Shown: one piece after another, positions 1,972 to 15,610 of the stretch
How positions within the stretch are numbered: position 1 is the stretch's first letter
How the letters are laid out: every line of letters starts with the position of its first letter
Assembly (NCBI RefSeq): GCF_004348725.1
Contig: NZ_SMKR01000052.1
Span: 1 to 41,620 of the forward strand
Source: Kribbella turkmenica
Lineage (GTDB): Bacteria; Actinomycetota; Actinomycetes; Propionibacteriales; Kribbellaceae
Direction of reading: 5' to 3'
Length of the DNA stretch: 41,620 nucleotides
The notes under the pieces: model-generated
Databases searched by the model: none
Told to the model about the DNA's origin: nothing
The model's input: only the letters and a program-made list of their open reading frames with translations
Program-made: the position numbers and the translations under genes

Positions 1972-2490
1972 ATGCGCAAGACCACTCTGGCCGCGGCACT
2001 GCTGGCGACCGCCGCACTGCTGACCGGCTGCGCCTCGGAGGTGCCCGACGCGCAGGTCGCGTCGGGCACCGGGGCGCAGGCGCAGGCAACCGCACCCACC
2101 AGCGCGCCGGACGGCCTGAGCCGGGACGAGAAGGCGATCAAGTTCACCCAGTGTCTGCGGGAGCAGGGCCTCGACGTGCCAGACCCGGAGCCCGGCAAGG
2201 GTCCGATGCTCAAGTTCGACCGCAACTCGGGCGTCACCCGGGAGAAGGTGCAGCAGGCGATGGACGCCTGCAAGGAGTTCAACCCGCAGGGCGAGGGCGG
2301 GCCGAACCCGCAGCAGGAGGAGAACGGCCGGAAGTTCGCCGAGTGCATGCGGGAGAACGGCGTGGAGAAGTTCCCGGACCCCAAGCCGGGCCAGCGCGGC
2401 ATCATGATCGGCCCGGGGGTCGCTGACGACCCGGACTTCCAGCAGGCGCAGGAGACCTGCCAGCCGATCATGGCCGGAAAGCAGAAGTGA
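1972..2490 (+). CDS. Lipoprotein with two Cys-containing repeats
   Basis: Predicted exported lipoprotein of 172 residues. The signal peptide MRKTTLAAALLATAALL is followed by the lipobox LTGC, so Cys20 should be lipidated. The mature part holds two related units of about 45 residues. Unit 1 starts FTQCLREQGLDVPDPEPG and unit 2 starts FAECMRENGVEKFPDPKPG. Each contains a second Cys later (MDACKEF; QETCQPI), so each unit could form its own disulfide. A good ribosome-binding site, AAGGAG at 1961-1966, sets the ATG at 1972. It is the first gene of an apparent operon with the MacA/MacB-like genes. I recognise no enzyme; a substrate-binding or accessory role for the exporter is inference from position. 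Confidence 0.85.
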   Translation: MRKTTLAAALLATAALLTGCASEVPDAQVASGTGAQAQATAPTSAPDGLSRDEKAIKFTQCLREQGLDVPDPEPGKGPMLKFDRNSGVTREKVQQAMDACKEFNPQGEGGPNPQQEENGRKFAECMRENGVEKFPDPKPGQRGIMIGPGVADDPDFQQAQETCQPIMAGKQK

Positions 2491-2509
2491 TGCGCCGACA
2501 CTGACCGCC

Positions 2510-3541
2510 GTGGTCGTCCTGGCCGCCGGAGGCGCCGCGAGCGCGTTCCTGGTGAACCGGGGCGACACCAGCCAGGCAGCAGACCAGACCGCCGCCGCGG
2601 TACCCGTCAACACCGCCGAGGTCACACAGCAGACGCTCAAGGACACCGAGAGCGCGGACGGCGAGCTCGGCTTCGGTACGACGTCCGCCGCCGTCAACCG
2701 CGCGGCCGGGACGATCACCGGCGTCCCCGACAGCGGACAGGAGTTCCGGCGCGGCCACACGGTGTACAGCGTGGACAACAAGCCGACCACGCTGATGTAC
2801 GGCACTCTTCCGGCCTACCGGAGGCTCTCCGACGGCAGTGAAGGTACGGACGTCCTGCAGCTCGAGCAGAACCTCAGTGCGATGGGCTACACCGGATTCA
2901 CCGTCGACGACGAGTTCACCGAGGCCACGGCCGAGGCGGTCCAGGAGTGGCAGGAGGACCTGGGCCAGGACGAGACAGGGGCCGTCGAGCTCGGCAGTGT
3001 GCTGTTCGCACCGGGTCACATCCGGGTGGAGAGCGTGGAGGCGCAGGAGGGCGCACCGATCGGGCCGAACCAGAACGTCCTCACCTACACGGGTACGACG
3101 AAGGCGGTCACGGTCCAGCTGGACGCCGCCGACCAGCGGCTCGCGAAGCCGAACGCGAAGGTCGACGTCACCCTCCCGGACGGCGCCACCGTGCCGGGCC
3201 GGGTGGAGAAGGTGTCGACGGTGATCATCCCGGCCGAGAGCCCGGACAACGACCCGGAGACCAAGGTCGAGGTCATCGTCGCGATCGACAACCAGAAGGC
3301 GGTGGCTGCGTGGTCGCTGGCCTCGGTCGACGTCACCTTCACCGCGTCCGAGCGGAAGAACGTACTGACCGTCCCGGTGGCCGCCCTGGTCGCTCTGCGC
3401 GAGGGCGGGTTCGGCGTCGAGGTCTCCGACGGTACGGCGTCGCGCTACGTGCCGGTGAAGACCGGACTGTTCGCCGGCGGCCAGGTCGAGATCAGCGGCG
3501 CCGGGATCAAGCCGGGCACCGAGGTGGGGATCCCGAAGTGA
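2510..3541 (+). CDS. MacA/HlyD-like periplasmic adaptor with peptidoglycan-binding domain
   Basis: Membrane-anchored adaptor of a MacB-type exporter. It has a short N-terminal hydrophobic anchor ([15 protein letters not shown]), a region around 66-105 that may hold a split lipoyl/barrel domain, a PG_binding_1-like module at about 107-157 ([17 protein letters not shown] ... TAEAVQEWQ), and a C-terminal beta-rich adaptor region. The start is uncertain. GTG at 2510 is the first usable start in this frame and gives 343 residues. The ATG at 2490, which overlaps the upstream stop, hits TGA after four codons; one extra base there would give the typical N-terminus [15 protein letters not shown]. The stop overlaps the GTG start of the ATPase. 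Adaptors with this module occur in actinobacterial ABC export operons (family knowledge). Confidence 0.85.
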
Positions 3542-4203
3542 TCGAACTGACCGAGGTGACGAAGGTCTACCCGGGCGGCGTCACCGCCCTCGGCGGCGTG
3601 AGCCTGCGGATCGACCGCGGCGAACTGGTCGCGATCGTCGGGCCGTCGGGCTCGGGCAAGTCGACGATGCTCAACGTCCTCGGCACCCTGGACCGGCCGA
3701 CGTCCGGCACGGTCCGGATCGACCGGTACGACGTCGCGCGGCTGTCCGACTCGGGTCTGTCCGCGCTGCGGGCGACCCGGATCGGCTTCGTGTTCCAGCA
3801 GTTCCACCTGGCGGCCGGCGTACGGGCGCTGGACAACGTGGCCGACGGCCTCCTGTACTCCGGTCTGCGGCCGTCGGTACGGCGCAAGCGGGCGGCGGCC
3901 GCGCTGGAGCGGGTCGGCCTCGAACACCGCATGGACCACGAACCGCATGAACTGTCCGGTGGCGAGCGGCAGCGGGTCGCCGTGGCACGGGCGGTCGCGG
4001 GCGAGCCCGCCGTACTGCTGGCCGATGAGCCGACCGGGGCGCTGGATTCGGCGTCCGGCGCGGGGGTGATGCAGTTGCTGCGCGACCTGCACGCGAGCGG
4101 TACGACGGTCGTCATCATCACGCACGACCGGGACATCGCGGCGTCGCTGCCGCGGCAGGTCCGGATGCGCGACGGCCGGATCCTCGAGGAGGTGTACGCA
4201 TGA
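3538..4203 (+). CDS. MacB/LolD-type ABC transporter ATPase
   Basis: Cytoplasmic ATPase of 221 residues that powers the adjacent permease. All nucleotide-binding motifs are present: Walker [10 protein letters not shown] (35-43), Q-loop Gln near 87-88 (VFQQFHL), signature LSGGERQ (139-145), Walker B VLLADEP with Asp163/Glu164, D-loop GALD and switch His196 (IITHD). The length and the insert after Walker A are typical of the MacB/LolD/FtsE class, which works with four-helix permeases rather than pore-forming ones. The GTG start at 3538 overlaps the previous stop, and its own stop overlaps the permease ATG, so the three genes are translationally coupled. The substrate is unknown. Confidence 0.96.
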
Positions 4204-10895: not shown

Positions 10896-11603
10896 ATGTC
10901 CGAGATCTCGCTGAAGCACGAGCGCATCGCGGCCGTGCTGGCCCGGGAGATCCGTTCCGGCCTGGTACGGCGGGGCGCCCAACTGCCCGGCGAGGTGGAG
11001 CTGGCCAAGCGGTTCTCGGTCAGCCGGAACACGGTCCGCTCGGCGCTCGCCGTACTGTCCGAGGACGGGCTGATCACCACCCGCACCGGGAAGGGCTCGT
11101 TCGTGCTGTTCGACGGGCGGCCACTGGACGGCCGGCTCGGGTGGACGCACGCGCTCGCCGAGCAGGGCGTCCAGACCCGGATGCGGACGGTCAAGATCGC
11201 CCTCGAACGGGACCCGGACCTGGCCGACCGGCTCGGGCTCGGCTCACCGGACATGATCGTGATCGAGCGCCTGCGGCAGCTCGCCGGCGGCGAGGCCATC
11301 TCGATCGAACGCAGTCGGCTCCCCGCGCTGGCGTCCTTGCGCGACCTGCCCGCGCGGGGCCTCGACAACGGCTCGATCACCGCCACCCTGCACAGCGCCG
11401 GCCTGCACCTCGACCACTGCGACCAACGCCTCCGCGGCCGCCCGCTGGATCCCACCGAGGCCGGTCTGCTCGGTCGGGCAACCGGCACGTGGTTCCTGCA
11501 CACGGAGCGCACCAGCTGGACGGCCGACGATCGTTTCGCCGAGTACGCCGAGAGTTTGCTGGATCCTGAGCACTTCGAGCTCAGCTTGTCCTACAGCAGT
11601 TGA
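10896..11603 (+). CDS. GntR-family regulator, HutC/UTRA subfamily
   Basis: Regulator of 235 residues. The N-terminal winged helix (about 5-72) shows LPGEVELAKRFSVSRNTVRSA and the wing EDGLITTRTGKGSFV. The C-terminal UTRA ligand domain (about 85-230) shows the usual VIERLRQLAGGEAISIERS strand. It is the third gene of the permease-hydrolase operon and most likely its ligand-responsive repressor, acting at the dyad near 8847-8868. The ligand is probably the transported compound or its product (inference). Confidence 0.92.
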   Translation: MSEISLKHERIAAVLAREIRSGLVRRGAQLPGEVELAKRFSVSRNTVRSALAVLSEDGLITTRTGKGSFVLFDGRPLDGRLGWTHALAEQGVQTRMRTVKIALERDPDLADRLGLGSPDMIVIERLRQLAGGEAISIERSRLPALASLRDLPARGLDNGSITATLHSAGLHLDHCDQRLRGRPLDPTEAGLLGRATGTWFLHTERTSWTADDRFAEYAESLLDPEHFELSLSYSS

Positions 11604-11653
11604 CCCGACGCTCGCTCCGCAGCCACTTCCTCGTCTCTGCGCTCATCGGCTAC

Positions 11654-11676
11654 CGCCGACGTGCGTGCGGTCGGCG
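11654..11676. terminator. Stem-loop after the GntR gene
   Basis: CGCCGAC (11654-11660) and GTCGGCG (11670-11676) form a 7-bp stem with a 9-base loop. There is no T-tract, so termination is uncertain. The rest of 11604-11800 shows no gene I can support. Confidence 0.3.
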
Positions 11677-11800
11677 TCGCCCCGACTCGAGACCGGGCAG
11701 TTCGGCCGAACGCGATGACGGCCGCCGGTGGACACGTCACCACGACGCGGTTGAGTGCGGCGGGGGCGATCACAAGCTGACTAAGGCGTCGCGGGCTCCG

Positions 11801-11860
11801 GCATAGGGAGTTGTGCCGATGCGGAAATCCACCTCAGGCGAGCACCGTTCAGGCATCGAC
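11801..11860 (+). repeat. Leader repeat, copy 1
   Basis: These 60 bases align without gaps to 12181-12240, exactly 380 bases downstream, with 41 of 60 identical by my count. The conserved cores are ATAGGGAG, CCGATG, ACCTCAG and GGCATCG. It immediately precedes small gene 1. Confidence 0.6.
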
Positions 11861-11878
11861 GAGTTCGCGGAGGAGAGC

Positions 11879-12037
11879 ATGCTCATCTACTCGACCAGTT
11901 CCGTCCAGGCAGAGGTCAAGTACCGCCAGGACCGGATCAAGCGCGACTTCCAGCGGCCGTTCTGGTTCTGGCGCAAGCCCAGGCCGGTGGCTCCCGCACC
12001 CCACGCGCCCGAGCTGCGGGCCCGTCCGGCGATGTGA
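11879..12037 (+). CDS. Small basic protein 1 of a tandem paralog triplet
   Basis: Protein of 52 residues starting MLIYSTSSVQAEVKYRQDR. A strong ribosome-binding site, GGAGG at 11869-11873, sits five bases before ATG 11879; an in-frame ATG at 11819 would add 22 residues but lies inside the repeated leader. It shares the core V-x-A-E-x-x-Y-R-x-x-R-x-x-R-D/E-F/Y with the proteins at 12276 and 12420. The core should be one charged amphipathic helix; the C-terminus is Trp/Pro/Arg-rich (FWFWRKPRPVAPAP), unlike the other two. No signal peptide or membrane helix. Function unknown. Confidence 0.65.
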   Translation: MLIYSTSSVQAEVKYRQDRIKRDFQRPFWFWRKPRPVAPAPHAPELRARPAM

Positions 12038-12068
12038 ACGCCAGATCGCCGCCTGTCCCACGTCCACC

Positions 12069-12101
12069 GGCGCGGCCGGCTCTTCGGAGCCCGGCCGCGC
12101 C
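12069..12101. terminator. GC-rich hairpin with TTCG loop after small gene 1
   Basis: Left arm 12069-12082 pairs with right arm 12087-12101 (one bulged base) around a TTCG tetraloop, an unusually stable loop. It lies 32 bases after the stop of small gene 1. The T-tract is weak (cgtcgttc). It may act as a terminator or a 3' stabiliser. Confidence 0.55.
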
Positions 12102-12124
12102 TCGTCGTTCCGGGGTCCGCGGGC

Positions 12125-12152
12125 GGTCCCTACGCCGTACCTGAGGTCCCTA
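12125..12152. promoter_or_regulatory. GGTCCCTA direct repeat, 20-bp period, upstream of small gene 2
   Basis: GGTCCCTA occurs at 12125-12132 and 12145-12152, two helical turns apart; the second is followed by GGACC, giving a local near-palindrome. The half-site resembles those of DevR/DosR-type response regulators in actinobacteria, but the left halves are degenerate, so the identification is tentative. Confidence 0.35.
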
Positions 12153-12180
12153 GGACCGCCTATGAGTCACCGGGCGCGGT

Positions 12181-12240
12181 GGATAGGGAGGAGTTCCGAT
12201 GTGCGGGCCTACCTCAGAGGAGCAGATTCGAGGCATCGGC
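12181..12240 (+). repeat. Leader repeat, copy 2
   Basis: Second copy of the 60-base leader (see 11801-11860), upstream of small gene 2. The ATG within CCGATG is in frame with the small protein in copy 1 but not in copy 2, so the conservation is unlikely to reflect a shared N-terminal extension and may mark a promoter or 5' UTR. Confidence 0.6.
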
Positions 12241-12275
12241 AGGGAGCCGGAGACACCACGTCCAAGGAGCACCAG

Positions 12276-12404
12276 ATGTTCACGAACGAATCGGTCAAGG
12301 CAGAGGTCGACTACCGCAGGGAGCGCCTCAGCCGCGACTTCCGGCAGCACCGGAGCACCCGGGGCCGCCGGCACCTCGTCCACCTGTTCGGCCGGAAAGC
12401 CTGA
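12276..12404 (+). CDS. Small basic protein 2 of the triplet
   Basis: Protein of 42 residues, starting MFTNESVKAEVDYRRERLSR. AAGGAG at 12264-12269 lies six bases before the ATG. It carries the shared helix core and ends in a basic tail (RSTRGRRHLVHLFGRKA). It is 15 bases upstream of the third paralog and probably co-transcribed with it. No recognised function; a nucleic-acid or membrane-surface contact by the basic tail is possible (inference). Confidence 0.65.
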   Translation: MFTNESVKAEVDYRRERLSRDFRQHRSTRGRRHLVHLFGRKA

Positions 12405-12419
12405 GGGGAGGCAGACAGC

Positions 12420-12581
12420 ATGTATCTCACACCTGACTACGTGAAGGCGGAGACCGACTACCGCCGGGAGCGGATCACCCGCGAGTACCGCGCGGCGAAC
12501 CGCCGGAAGCGCGCCGAGCGGACCGCGCGGACCGAGCCGCGGCACGCCCGCCGGGTCCTCCGACCCACGACGGCGGCATGA
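12420..12581 (+). CDS. Small basic protein 3 of the triplet
   Basis: Protein of 53 residues, starting [28 protein letters not shown]-type ribosome-binding site lies eight bases before ATG 12420. The core motif is followed by a very Arg-rich tail ([20 protein letters not shown]). The stop at 12579-12581 is followed ten bases later by a strong terminator, so the triplet ends here and does not read into the large LuxR gene. Proteins 2 and 3 are closer to each other (VKAE-x-DYRRER) than to protein 1. Confidence 0.68.
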
Positions 12582-12591
12582 CCGCCGGGAC

Positions 12592-12633
12592 CGCCGTCCC
12601 TGACCTGGAAGCACCGGTCAGGGACGGCGTTTT
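12592..12633 (+). terminator. Rho-independent terminator after the small-gene triplet
   Basis: A perfect 14-bp stem (12592-12605 with 12616-12629), arm CGCCGTCCCTGACC, with a 10-base loop, followed directly by TTTT (12630-12633) and CGTT. This is the clearest intrinsic terminator in the window. It also argues against starting the next gene upstream of it, at ATG 12578. Confidence 0.88.
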
Positions 12634-12694
12634 CGTTGCCACCGGCGACCACCGGAAGGGCTGCCGTCGATTTGTGTCGGCTCCAGGGGCGAAG

Positions 12695-15610
12695 ATGGAC
12701 GACGTGCCCTGGACCTCGACACCTCTCGTCGGCCGCTCTGCCGAGATGGCCGCCCTGCTCAGCGCCGTCGACGACGCCAAGACGCGTCGGGCCGGCGCCG
12801 TCCTGCTGTCCGGTGACGCCGGCGTCGGCAAGACCCGGCTGCTGGACGAGGTGGCCACCGGCGCGCACGAACGCGGGTTCGGCGTCCTGGTCGGACACTG
12901 CACCGACTTCGGCGACGCCGGTCTGCCGTACCTGCCGTTCACCGAGATCTTCGGCCGGCTGGCGGGCGACCGGCCCGACCTGGTCGAGAGCGTGCTCACC
13001 AACTTCCCGGCGATCGGCCGGCTGCTGCCCACGCACCGCCTGATCGGCGCCCAGCCCGTGCCGCAGGACGGCCAGCTGGACCGGGCCGCCCTGTTCGACG
13101 CGGTCCTGGGCGCGTTCACCGCGCTGTCGACCAGCGAGCCGCTGCTGGTGATCATCGAGGACGCGCACTGGGCCGACGACTCGACCCGGGACCTGATCGG
13201 TTTCCTGATCACCCGGCTCACCTCCCAGCGCCTGACCCTGGTGGTGTCCTACCGCAGCGACGACCTGCACCGCCGGCATCCGCTCCGCCGCCCGATCGCC
13301 GAGTGGTCCCGCAACCCGCGGGTCCGCCGGGTCAGCCTGCTGCCCCTGGACGCCGACGAGTCCCGCGTCCTGCTGAACTCGCTCCTCACCGAGCCGCTGC
13401 CGGAGTCCGAGGTACGGCGGATCCTCGACCGGGCCGGCGGGAACGCGTTCTTCACCGAGGAGCTGGTCGCGGCCGCCTCGATGGGCGACGGGGAGGCGGT
13501 ACCGCCGGATCTGGCCGATCTGCTGCTGGTCCGGCTCGATCCGCTGTCGGACGACGCCCGGCAGGTCGCCCGGGTGATCGCGGTCGCGGGCCGTCGGGTC
13601 CCGCACAACCTGCTCACCGCGGTCGCCGGGCTGCCGGACCGCGAGCTGGACGACGCCCTGCGCGAGCTCATCGACGCCCACATCATCGACGTACCGGCCA
13701 ACGACCGGTATTACTTCCGCCACGCCCTGCTGGCCGAGGCGGTGTACGACGACTTGCTGCCGGGCGAGCGCGTCCGGCAGCACTCGGCGTACGTGCAGGC
13801 GCTGAAGGACCAGACCGTCGCGGGGACGGCGGCCGAGCTCGCCGGGCACGCCACCCGGTCGCACAACCTGGCCGAGGCCTTCGAGGCCCGGGTGCGGGCC
13901 GGCGAAGAGGCCATCTCGGTGGCCGCGCCGCAGGAAGCACTCAAGCACTACGAGCTGGCGATGGAGCTGTTCCCGAACCGGTCGCCCGAGAGCACGATCG
14001 ACAAGATCTGGCTGACCGTGCAGACCGCGACCGCCGCGACACTGTCCTCGCAGCACCTGCGGGCGCTGAAGATCCTCCGTAAGGCGCTGGCCGAGCTGCC
14101 CGCGGACGCGTCCGGGATGGACCGGGCCCAGCTGCTGCTGCCGCTGGCCGACATCGCGCTGGTGATCGACCAGGACCAGGAGGCGCTCGAGGCGATCTCG
14201 CAGGCGCTCAAGCTGGTCAACGACGAGCCGGCCAGCGTGTTCAAGGCCCACGTCGCCTCGCTCTACGCCCGGGTCTCGGATGCGCTGGGCCGGCCGATGG
14301 AGGCCGAGCGCTGGGCGTTGCGGGCGCTCGAGATCGCTCGCGAGGCCGGTCAGGAGTCCGCGATGGGCGACGCCGGCATCACCCTCGCCGTGCTGCGTCG
14401 TCGGGCCGGCGATCCGGTCGGCGCGGTCCGGCAGCTGGAGGAGGCCGCGGTCCGGGCGCAACTGGCGGGCGACGCGGCGGCGGAGATCCGGAGCCGCTTC
14501 CTGCTCGGCTCGACGCATTACGAGCAGGGCGACCTGCAGAACGCGAAGTCCGCGCTGGCGCTCGCGATGAGGCGAGCCGGGGAGCTCGGACGCCAGTGGG
14601 CCGCGTACGGATTCGACGCGCGGCGAATGCTCGGGCTGACGCAGTTCGTCCTCGGCGAGTGGGACGACGCGGCGGCGACCGCCCGGACCGACTCGATGAC
14701 GCCGAACGCGTCCGCGGCGGCGCTGCGGGCGGTGGAGTTCGCAGTCCGCAGCGGGCGCGGTGACACCTCGGTCGCGGACGAGCTGGAGCGGCTGCGCAAG
14801 TGGTGGGACCTCGACGTGATGCTGCCGATCATCGGTCTGCAGCCGGCGGTGGACGCCTACCGGCAGCTCGATCAGCCGGCGGAGGCGGAGAAGCTGATCG
14901 CCGACGTGTCCGCGCTGCTCGAGGACGTGTTCCAGAGCGAGTGGTACATGGCGCGGATCCGGTTCTCGACCCTCGGGCTGCAGGTGCTGTGCCACCGGGC
15001 CGTGGGTGAGCCGTCCGCGGCCGAGGAGCTGGTGGACAAGGGGTCGGAGCTGCTCGCGGCCGGGCACGCGACGGCGGAGAAGGGCCTTCCGCCCGGGCGG
15101 CTGATGGGTGTCGAGGGGCTGGCGTGGCTCACGCGGCTCGAGGCGGAGTGGGAGCGGCTGCGCTGGCTGACCGGGATCGATCCACCGACGCCCGAGGAGC
15201 ACGTGTCCGTGTGGGAGCGGACGGTGGACGCGTTCGGGTACGGCTACATCTTCGAGCAGGCGTGGTCGCGGGTGCGGCTGTCCGCCGCGCTGCGGGCGGC
15301 GGGGCGGGTCGCGGAGGCGAACGAGCAGGCTGCGCTGGCCGCTGAGGTCGGGCGTGAGCTGGCGTCGAAGCCGCTGCTCGACGAAGTCGGCGGAGTGGAA
15401 GGTGGCGGGGCGAGCAGCCTGACGTCGCGGGAGACCGAGGTGCTCGCGCTGCTCGCCGAGGGGCGCACCAACCGGCAGTTGGCGCGGGAGCTGTACATCA
15501 GCGAGAAGACGGTCAGCGTGCACGTCTCCAACATCCTGGCGAAGCTCGGCGTCCGCTCCCGCACCGAAGCCGCCGCGGTAGCCCGCCGAGACGGCCTCCT
15601 GGACAACTAG
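12695..15610 (+). CDS. Large AAA-ATPase LuxR-family regulator (LAL type)
   Basis: Transcription activator of 971 residues from ATG 12695 (GTG 12674 is a seven-codon longer option). I start it after the terminator at 12592-12633; an ATG at 12578 keeps the frame open but would place the terminator inside the gene. The N-terminal ATPase shows LVGRSAEM, Walker [12 protein letters not shown] (residues 39-49) and Walker [14 protein letters not shown]. The middle, about 500 residues, is helical and TPR-like. The C-terminal LuxR helix-turn-helix is complete: [20 protein letters not shown] followed by [24 protein letters not shown] regulators often control carbon use or antibiotic genes; the target here is unknown. 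The small-protein triplet just upstream is a candidate partner or target. Confidence 0.94.

Follow-up and report, generated by a model that had tools for sequence, protein, structure and literature searches.

In this work we have analyzed three small related genes of Kribbella turkmenica in the window (the whole stretch of 41,620 nucleotides) and found them embedded in what is probably a self-contained regulatory module, in which the AAA-LuxR regulator encoded next to them would activate a distinctive promoter and the small proteins would constitute the output, in the manner of AfsR-afsS. The promoter-like element, the module and the co-occurrence of its parts are established by comparison of genome sequences. 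The module appears to be old, widespread and so far undescribed. The promoter was absent from the original prediction, as were the leaderless cases and the link to whiB7, and together they change the meaning of the locus.

Table 1 Features of the putative regulatory module in the window
Feature	Position	Strand	Remarks
CTAAGG repeat, candidate activator half-site	11781..11786	+	22 nt before TAGGG of promoter 1
Putative promoter 1	11804..11848	+	TAGGGA-N8-GATGCG-N8-CCTCAG-N5-CACCGT (-10); profile E=2.1e-4; start expected at ~11855
Small protein gene 1	11879..12037 (incl. stop)	+	52 aa; Trp/Pro-rich tail
CTGAGG and CTAGGA repeats	12141..12155	+	42 and 33 nt before TAGGG of promoter 2
Putative promoter 2	12184..12228	+	TAGGGA-N8-GATGTG-N8-CCTCAG-N5-CAGATT (-10); profile E=3.4e-13; start expected at ~12235
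Predicted 5′ hairpin of gene 2-3 mRNA	12234..12252	+	stem ~12236-12250, loop AGGGA; compensatory pairs
Small protein gene 2	12276..12404 (incl. stop)	+	42 aa; AlphaFold single helix 4-38
Small protein gene 3	12420..12581 (incl. stop)	+	53 aa; Arg-rich
Intrinsic-terminator-like hairpin	12592..12629	+	perfect 14-bp stem (12592-12605 / 12616-12629), TTTTCG tail
AAA-LuxR (STAND/LAL) regulator gene	12695..15610	+	Pfam AAA_16 and GerE; ortholog profile from 12695

Several lines of comparison indicate that the three open reading frames (52, 42 and 53 aa) are real and related. They have in common the core V-x-A-E-x-x-Y-R-x-[DE]-R-[IL]-x-R-[DE]-[FY], the DNA of which forms a three-copy direct repeat of 50 nt (78-80% identity), and BLASTP connects protein 1 with protein 3 (E=4e-5) and protein 2 with protein 3 (E=5e-9), so the triplet with a common motif that had been claimed is real. 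A Shine-Dalgarno-like stretch was recognized by eye before each ATG (GGAGGAG, AAGGAG and GGGAGG for genes 1, 2 and 3), in line with the predicted ribosome-binding site of each gene. The proteins had been said to belong to no named family, and searches of Pfam and NCBIfam at E≤1 indeed returned zero families for each of them; distant relatives of the small proteins (four in Pfam, three in NCBIfam) gave no match at E≤0.1. The AlphaFold2 model of the small protein, based on 87 sequences, consists of one helix spanning residues 4-38 (mean pLDDT 75.7, with the best values over the first 20 residues). AlphaFold overcalls helix in short charged peptides. The residues E, Y and R of AExxYR are each conserved in at least 90% of the 87 aligned proteins.

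Homologs in other genomes had been required of a real set, and matches to the small proteins were present in all 36 other Kribbella genomes searched (best E of 8.6e-11 or lower). Three copies stand at one locus in 35 of the 37 Kribbella loci read, the window counted; the exceptions are L041, with two copies, and L048, which is split by a contig end. The pN/pS ratio of the 16-residue core amounts to 0.47, 0.46 and 0.43 for genes 1, 2 and 3 (n=35, 37 and 31), that of the tails to 0.62, 1.45 and 0.80; judged by these ratios the cores of all three genes are under purifying selection. The idea of one core with differing tails is borne out, the core being conserved and the tails evolving faster. The excess of synonymous changes proposed as a check of coding function was found in the core of all three genes and was missing from the gene 2 tail, where pN exceeds pS together with an unusually low pS (0.19). 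Along gene 2 (12276-12401) the synonymous divergence is unusually low (pS 0.19-0.22) and codons such as GCA and AGG are conserved, which may reflect constraint at the nucleotide level. Relatives of gene 3 occur on other Kribbella contigs (L047, L057) and in family f4 (L077-L080) with no such regulator nearby; their upstream region is different, with a common GTCGRATC...GTTCGT noticed by eye, and possibly represents another promoter type.

Alignment of the regions upstream of genes 1 and 2 revealed an element composed of phased TRRGG direct repeats followed by GATGTG-N8-CCTCAG-N5-[CG]ANNNT. The likely -10 hexamer is [CG]ANNNT, with GATGTG at the -35 position and a 19-nt spacer holding CCTCAG; this assignment was made because three loci (L053, L061 and L160) have the start of a small ORF 6-7 nt past the hexamer, with no Shine-Dalgarno sequence visible by eye, as fits a leaderless transcript. 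Upstream of TARGG the word CTRRGG was observed 100 times in 91 homologous promoters against a mean of 20 in dinucleotide shuffles, a five-fold enrichment, the commonest spacing being 22-23 nt (37 of 100), followed by 31-32 nt (8 at 31 nt) and a scatter at 42-45 nt. The spacer CCTCAG is the same kind of word in inverted orientation. The sequence TGAGGTAG was encountered 38 times (0.1 expected) in 69 non-Kribbella promoters and zero times in 22 Kribbella promoters. Other searches were uninformative: the word CCTNAGG by itself shows no enrichment in the window (10 occurrences, 8.1 expected), a sigma-70 consensus scan returned nothing, and TAGGGANNNGTNCNGATG with two mismatches was not specific in its own genome (83 matches vs 81 in the reversed control); one exact match to TAGGGANNNGTNCNGATG, in L082, looked unrelated. 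The K. turkmenica genome contains no third promoter match (next E=0.19). Gene 3 has no promoter of the GATGTG/CCTCAG type of its own, and we infer that it is co-transcribed with gene 2.

The mRNA of gene 2 is predicted to begin with a hairpin. In an alignment of 35 distinct sequences 92.7% of the cells are paired and 25 cells are changed on both sides, values of which neither was reached in 500 shuffles; four pairs are changed on both sides, a number attained by 101 of the 500 shuffles as well, and the count of further pair types is lower than in shuffles. Slid controls with the partner column shifted left 19-46% paired and none changed on both sides. The two outermost pairs are often broken, the hairpin is lost in L063, and no counterpart was seen by eye before gene 1. 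At the other end of the set a strong terminator had been predicted, which agrees with the perfect 14-bp stem followed by TTTTCG and with a comparable hairpin between gene 3 and the regulator gene in 29 of 31 Kribbella loci scanned (none in L073, a weak one only in L068); the T-run 3′ of it varies between the loci. A simple terminator scan listed nothing because its loop limit is 8 nt and the loop here has 10 nt. An Rfam search of 11500-12800 gave three matches, all far below the gathering scores. Upstream of the set are encoded a permease of the cytosine/purine type, a protein with an isochorismatase domain and a GntR-UTRA regulator.

The large AAA-LuxR regulator claimed to lie beside the triplet was confirmed by its domains, AAA_16 (E=8e-30, residues 49-222 of the 1010-aa ORF) and the GerE/LuxR HTH (E=3e-21, residues 946-1002). 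The ortholog comparison makes 12695 the preferred start over that of the open reading frame at 12578. Large size, an N-terminal AAA ATPase with a Walker motif (GDAGxGK, invariant in 13 orthologs) and a C-terminal LuxR/GerE HTH are the marks of LAL (MalT-type) regulators, and by this comparison the protein is an ordinary LAL in architecture. Mean identity among 13 diverse orthologs is 75% in the HTH, 49% in the AAA domain, 55% in residues 223-450 and 36% in residues 451-940; the HTH is therefore as constant as a constant DNA target would predict. In the 36 other Kribbella genomes the best alignment is 69-94% identical to the regulator of the window. An ortholog profile detected a clear ortholog (at least 1122 bits) in 17 of 17 genomes, two of them with two copies, and the next-best paralog scored 536.

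The exact pattern GATGTG-N8-CCTCAG-N5-SANNNT is present in 111 of 391 genomes of the order, including all 38 Kribbella (reversed control zero), and in 24 of 394 genomes of a class sample (one match in the reversed control). Nine of the latter 24 lie outside the order, and in eight of these the regulator, with 49-53% identity over the covered part, is encoded directly downstream; in the ninth (L201), as in L161, the promoter words probably occur by chance. When 84,980 named genomes were scanned with a longer promoter pattern, at least 117 loci were obtained. The 117 matches listed are all actinobacterial by title and comprise Kribbella, Nocardioides, Pimelobacter, Mumia, Aeromicrobium, Terrabacter, Terracoccus, Arsenicicoccus, Ornithinimicrobium, Austwickia, Pedococcus, Intrasporangium and Kineococcus as well as metagenome-assembled genomes (MAGs), some labelled Sporichthyaceae, Frankiales, Pseudonocardiales or Acidimicrobiales. 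In 93 of the 117 loci listed the promoter is followed by a gene for a small basic protein and, on the same strand within 2.5 kb downstream, by a regulator ortholog. The promoter stands before whiB7 in eight (L235, L236, L253, L277, L279, L297, L301 and L302), before a second family of small basic proteins in four (L234, L283, L286 and L291), before a captured ligase gene in one (L308), and before a small ORF with room for a regulator that is not there in three (L228, L247 and L312); eight end before the downstream gene could be read.

An automatic rule assigned 70 of the 92 promoter sites in the first 80 loci to the AExxYR family. These 70 small proteins have a median length of 50 aa and a median net charge of +7; 55 have a Shine-Dalgarno-like stretch and 15 start at most 8 nt from the -10 hexamer. 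Homologs beside LuxR regulators, suggested as a check of the original prediction, thus extend far beyond the genus, while tandem sets did not prove to be the rule: two promoter copies (promoterless small genes fall outside this count) were found among the 117 loci listed in Kribbella, one record being labelled Streptomyces, and otherwise only in L268, a Nocardioides MAG. On this distribution the Kribbella triplet is a genus-level expansion of an older system. The second small family has the pattern ..TTALMLT.L..D..G....RRRDLRRRQ.. and in three loci adjoins an aldo/keto reductase gene in the same order (Pfam for L283). In two Mumia loci (L228 and L312) a gene for a LigD primase-polymerase (Pfam for L228, E=2e-91) follows the small basic protein and replaces the regulator. 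In genome G747 (C3:677387, L395) a further match to the promoter, accompanied by a possible small ORF (MYGTSHHQDVAKPEVESRFGG...), lies away from the regulator.

Two Kribbella carry a gene for an ATP-grasp / L-amino acid ligase enzyme that is joined in frame to the initial codons of gene 2 and preceded by a copy of promoter 2. The promoter is diverged (E=3.5e-4) in K. steppae (L394, genome G017, 2220-3572), where the first nine codons read MVTNDSVKA, and exact in Kribbella sp. VKM Ac-2568 (L308, 7347-8000), where the protein begins with MFTTDSVKAEV. The enzyme of K. steppae matches Pfam LAL_C2 (E=9e-24), and that of L308 was assigned by its matching sequence.

The eight whiB7 products, inspected by eye, display four cysteines, G(V/I)WGG and an AT-hook-like RGRPR (or RPGRPR) tail. 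The L297 protein matches Pfam Whib (E=1.4e-14), and its best PDB chain is WhiB7 of M. tuberculosis (7kif, E=3.4e-28); three of the eight were tried against NCBIfam and gave no match at E≤0.1. In five of the eight loci whiB7 starts 6 nt past the -10 hexamer, so that these transcripts look leaderless, and in L253, L301 and L302 the distance is 20-32 nt. The whiB7 link is absent in the genome of the window, since no third promoter match was found there.

In the order, Kribbella left aside, there is a strong tendency for promoter and regulator to occur together: with the exact promoter pattern and the regulator at E≤1e-200, both were found in 68 genomes, the promoter alone in 5, the regulator alone in 76 and neither in 204 (p=5e-26). 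Three of the five promoter-alone genomes belong to family f2; G272 has a partial regulator downstream of the promoter (38% identity over 718 aa, on a short contig), and in G387 the contig stops ~200 bases past the promoter. Twenty regulator-positive genomes without the exact promoter were picked by hand, 16 outside family f2 and 4 within it. A promoter match of 12-14 of 15 positions was present in 15 of the 16, 13 of these with a recognized AExxYR ORF; G233 reached a promoter score of 11 of 15 and no small ORF was found in it. The four f2 genomes scored 9-10 of 15 and had no credible small ORF. Where the promoter also drives remote targets, namely whiB7 in G747, G748, G749, G750 and G754 (the loci L235, L301 and L302 not being part of this set) and the second small family in G746, G751, G752 and G753, the regulator locus itself has an upstream promoter match in all nine genomes.

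Taken as a control module, the locus would work as follows. The STAND ATPase-LuxR protein, being MalT-like, would sense a signal and oligomerise, bind the phased repeats and recruit RNA polymerase to weak promoters; with the regulator gene downstream behind the terminator, read-through into it would create positive feedback. The small proteins, for which a single basic helix bearing a conserved E-Y-R patch and a tail rich in Arg is predicted, would act as output effectors binding RNA, the ribosome or another partner, and in Kribbella this output would have grown to three proteins that are alike in the core and differ in their tails. The link between regulator and promoter is drawn from neighbourhood and co-occurrence only, the 76 regulator-positive genomes lacking the exact promoter and the small proteins that occur where there is no regulator speak against the module, and a simple activator array leaves the inverted CCTCAG in the spacer unexplained.

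Several proteins bind MalT and damp or tune it. The small proteins could likewise be dedicated partners of the regulator, peptides that bind its AAA/TPR part and provide negative feedback, as is suggested by the place of promoter and small gene upstream of the regulator on the same strand in most loci listed, by their mostly joint presence or absence in the 20 regulator-positive genomes and by the high conservation of the core E, Y and R. We nevertheless regard such a role as unlikely, and effectors are preferred, because relatives of the small proteins exist with no regulator nearby (L047, L057, L077-L080, L228, L247 and L312), the same promoter drives whiB7 and an unrelated small family, and Kribbella keeps three diverged copies per one regulator; the four f2 genomes read, which have the regulator and no recognized small protein, argue in the same direction.

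A large part of the co-occurrence stems from the locus of the regulator itself, and the promoter could therefore be read by a different factor, such as a particular sigma factor or WhiB7, the latter acting on its own gene as well as on this operon; the AAA-LuxR protein would then be a target and not the controller. Such an arrangement would suit the unusual -35 GATGTG and the presence of whiB7 among the targets, WhiB7 being autoregulated according to the excerpt consulted of PMC4921905. The position just upstream of the -35 is C-rich here vs the AT-rich run of known WhiB7 promoters described in that excerpt, the upstream direct repeats at preferred spacings argue for an activator, and the co-occurrence is accompanied by an unusually constant regulator HTH; control by another factor therefore seems rather improbable to us. 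That the conserved element is a coding leader, either extending protein 1 at its N-terminus or forming a regulatory uORF (MCGxTSDEQ..), is highly improbable and was set aside because the frame is not kept: the ATG within GATGTG follows a G-rich stretch and is in register with gene 1 in 19 of 29 loci, but only 8 of the 29 genomes (two with an early stop) keep the register for gene 2, the sixth codon is TCA in the compared leaders, a sign of nucleotide-level constraint, the small ORF of L053, L061 and L160 starts just past the -10, and whiB7 lies behind the same element. The open frames from ATG 11819 and ATG 12199 accordingly look like promoter DNA and not like protein.

Under the preferred reading of regulator, promoter and effectors as one module, an unannotated family of 40-55 aa proteins, a promoter class and a regulator family would make up a common control module of actinobacteria, spanning Kribbella, Nocardioides, Terrabacter, Ornithinimicrobium, other actinobacterial genera and some uncultured lineages. 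It would connect a STAND sensor with small proteins and, in part of the species, with whiB7, the master regulator of resistance. More tentatively, and with somewhat less than even confidence, we propose a stress regulon, in which tiny arginine-rich helical effectors would be switched on, along with whiB7, by a STAND-LuxR activator dedicated to a promoter class of its own; if true, the antibiotic-resistance programme could thereby be entered by a second route, which would often be leaderless. Equally tentative, as part of the same proposal, is the suggestion that the promoter was useful enough to be captured by a ligase gene in two Kribbella species. If the module is real, its promoter code can be read and looked for in further actinobacterial genomes, so that regulon and signal become directly testable. 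Among the open-access papers listed no description of the module was found, and to that extent the small protein family, the class of promoter and the connection with whiB7 are undescribed. Annotation of small ORFs can overlook conserved genes beside well-annotated regulators.

Among the known systems the WhiB7/WblC regulon shares with the module the gene whiB7, which in Nocardioides and its relatives is one of those that follow this promoter. According to the excerpt of PMC4921905, known whiB7 genes are marked by an AT-rich WhiB7 site and by a long 5′ leader in which a small ORF may lie; neither is part of the promoter described here. The regulator of the window resembles MalT and other LALs in its N-terminal AAA ATPase, TPR-like middle part and C-terminal LuxR HTH. 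The repeat motif is unlike the MalT box. MalT itself binds two decanucleotides in direct repeat, as given in the part of PMC6099782 consulted. The LALs compared, in the excerpts describing them, control catabolic or antibiotic genes, in contrast to the small basic proteins and whiB7 here.

In Streptomyces the genes afsR and afsS are adjacent. The likeness to this pair, in which only the arrangement was compared, consists of a large ATPase/TPR regulator, a target gene for a small protein and direct repeats (PMC10936776, in excerpt). According to the same excerpt the STAND regulator AfsR activates afsS, the promoter of which has the weak -10 hexamer CACTGT and, like SARP promoters, an extended -10/-35 spacer. 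CACTGT is found also in many gene 1 promoters, and the element described here has an extended spacer too. AfsR differs in its SARP (OmpR-type) DNA-binding domain and its 22-bp box overlapping the -35 (PMC10936776, in excerpt), whereas in the module of Kribbella the LuxR/GerE domain is at the C-terminus and the repeats lie upstream.
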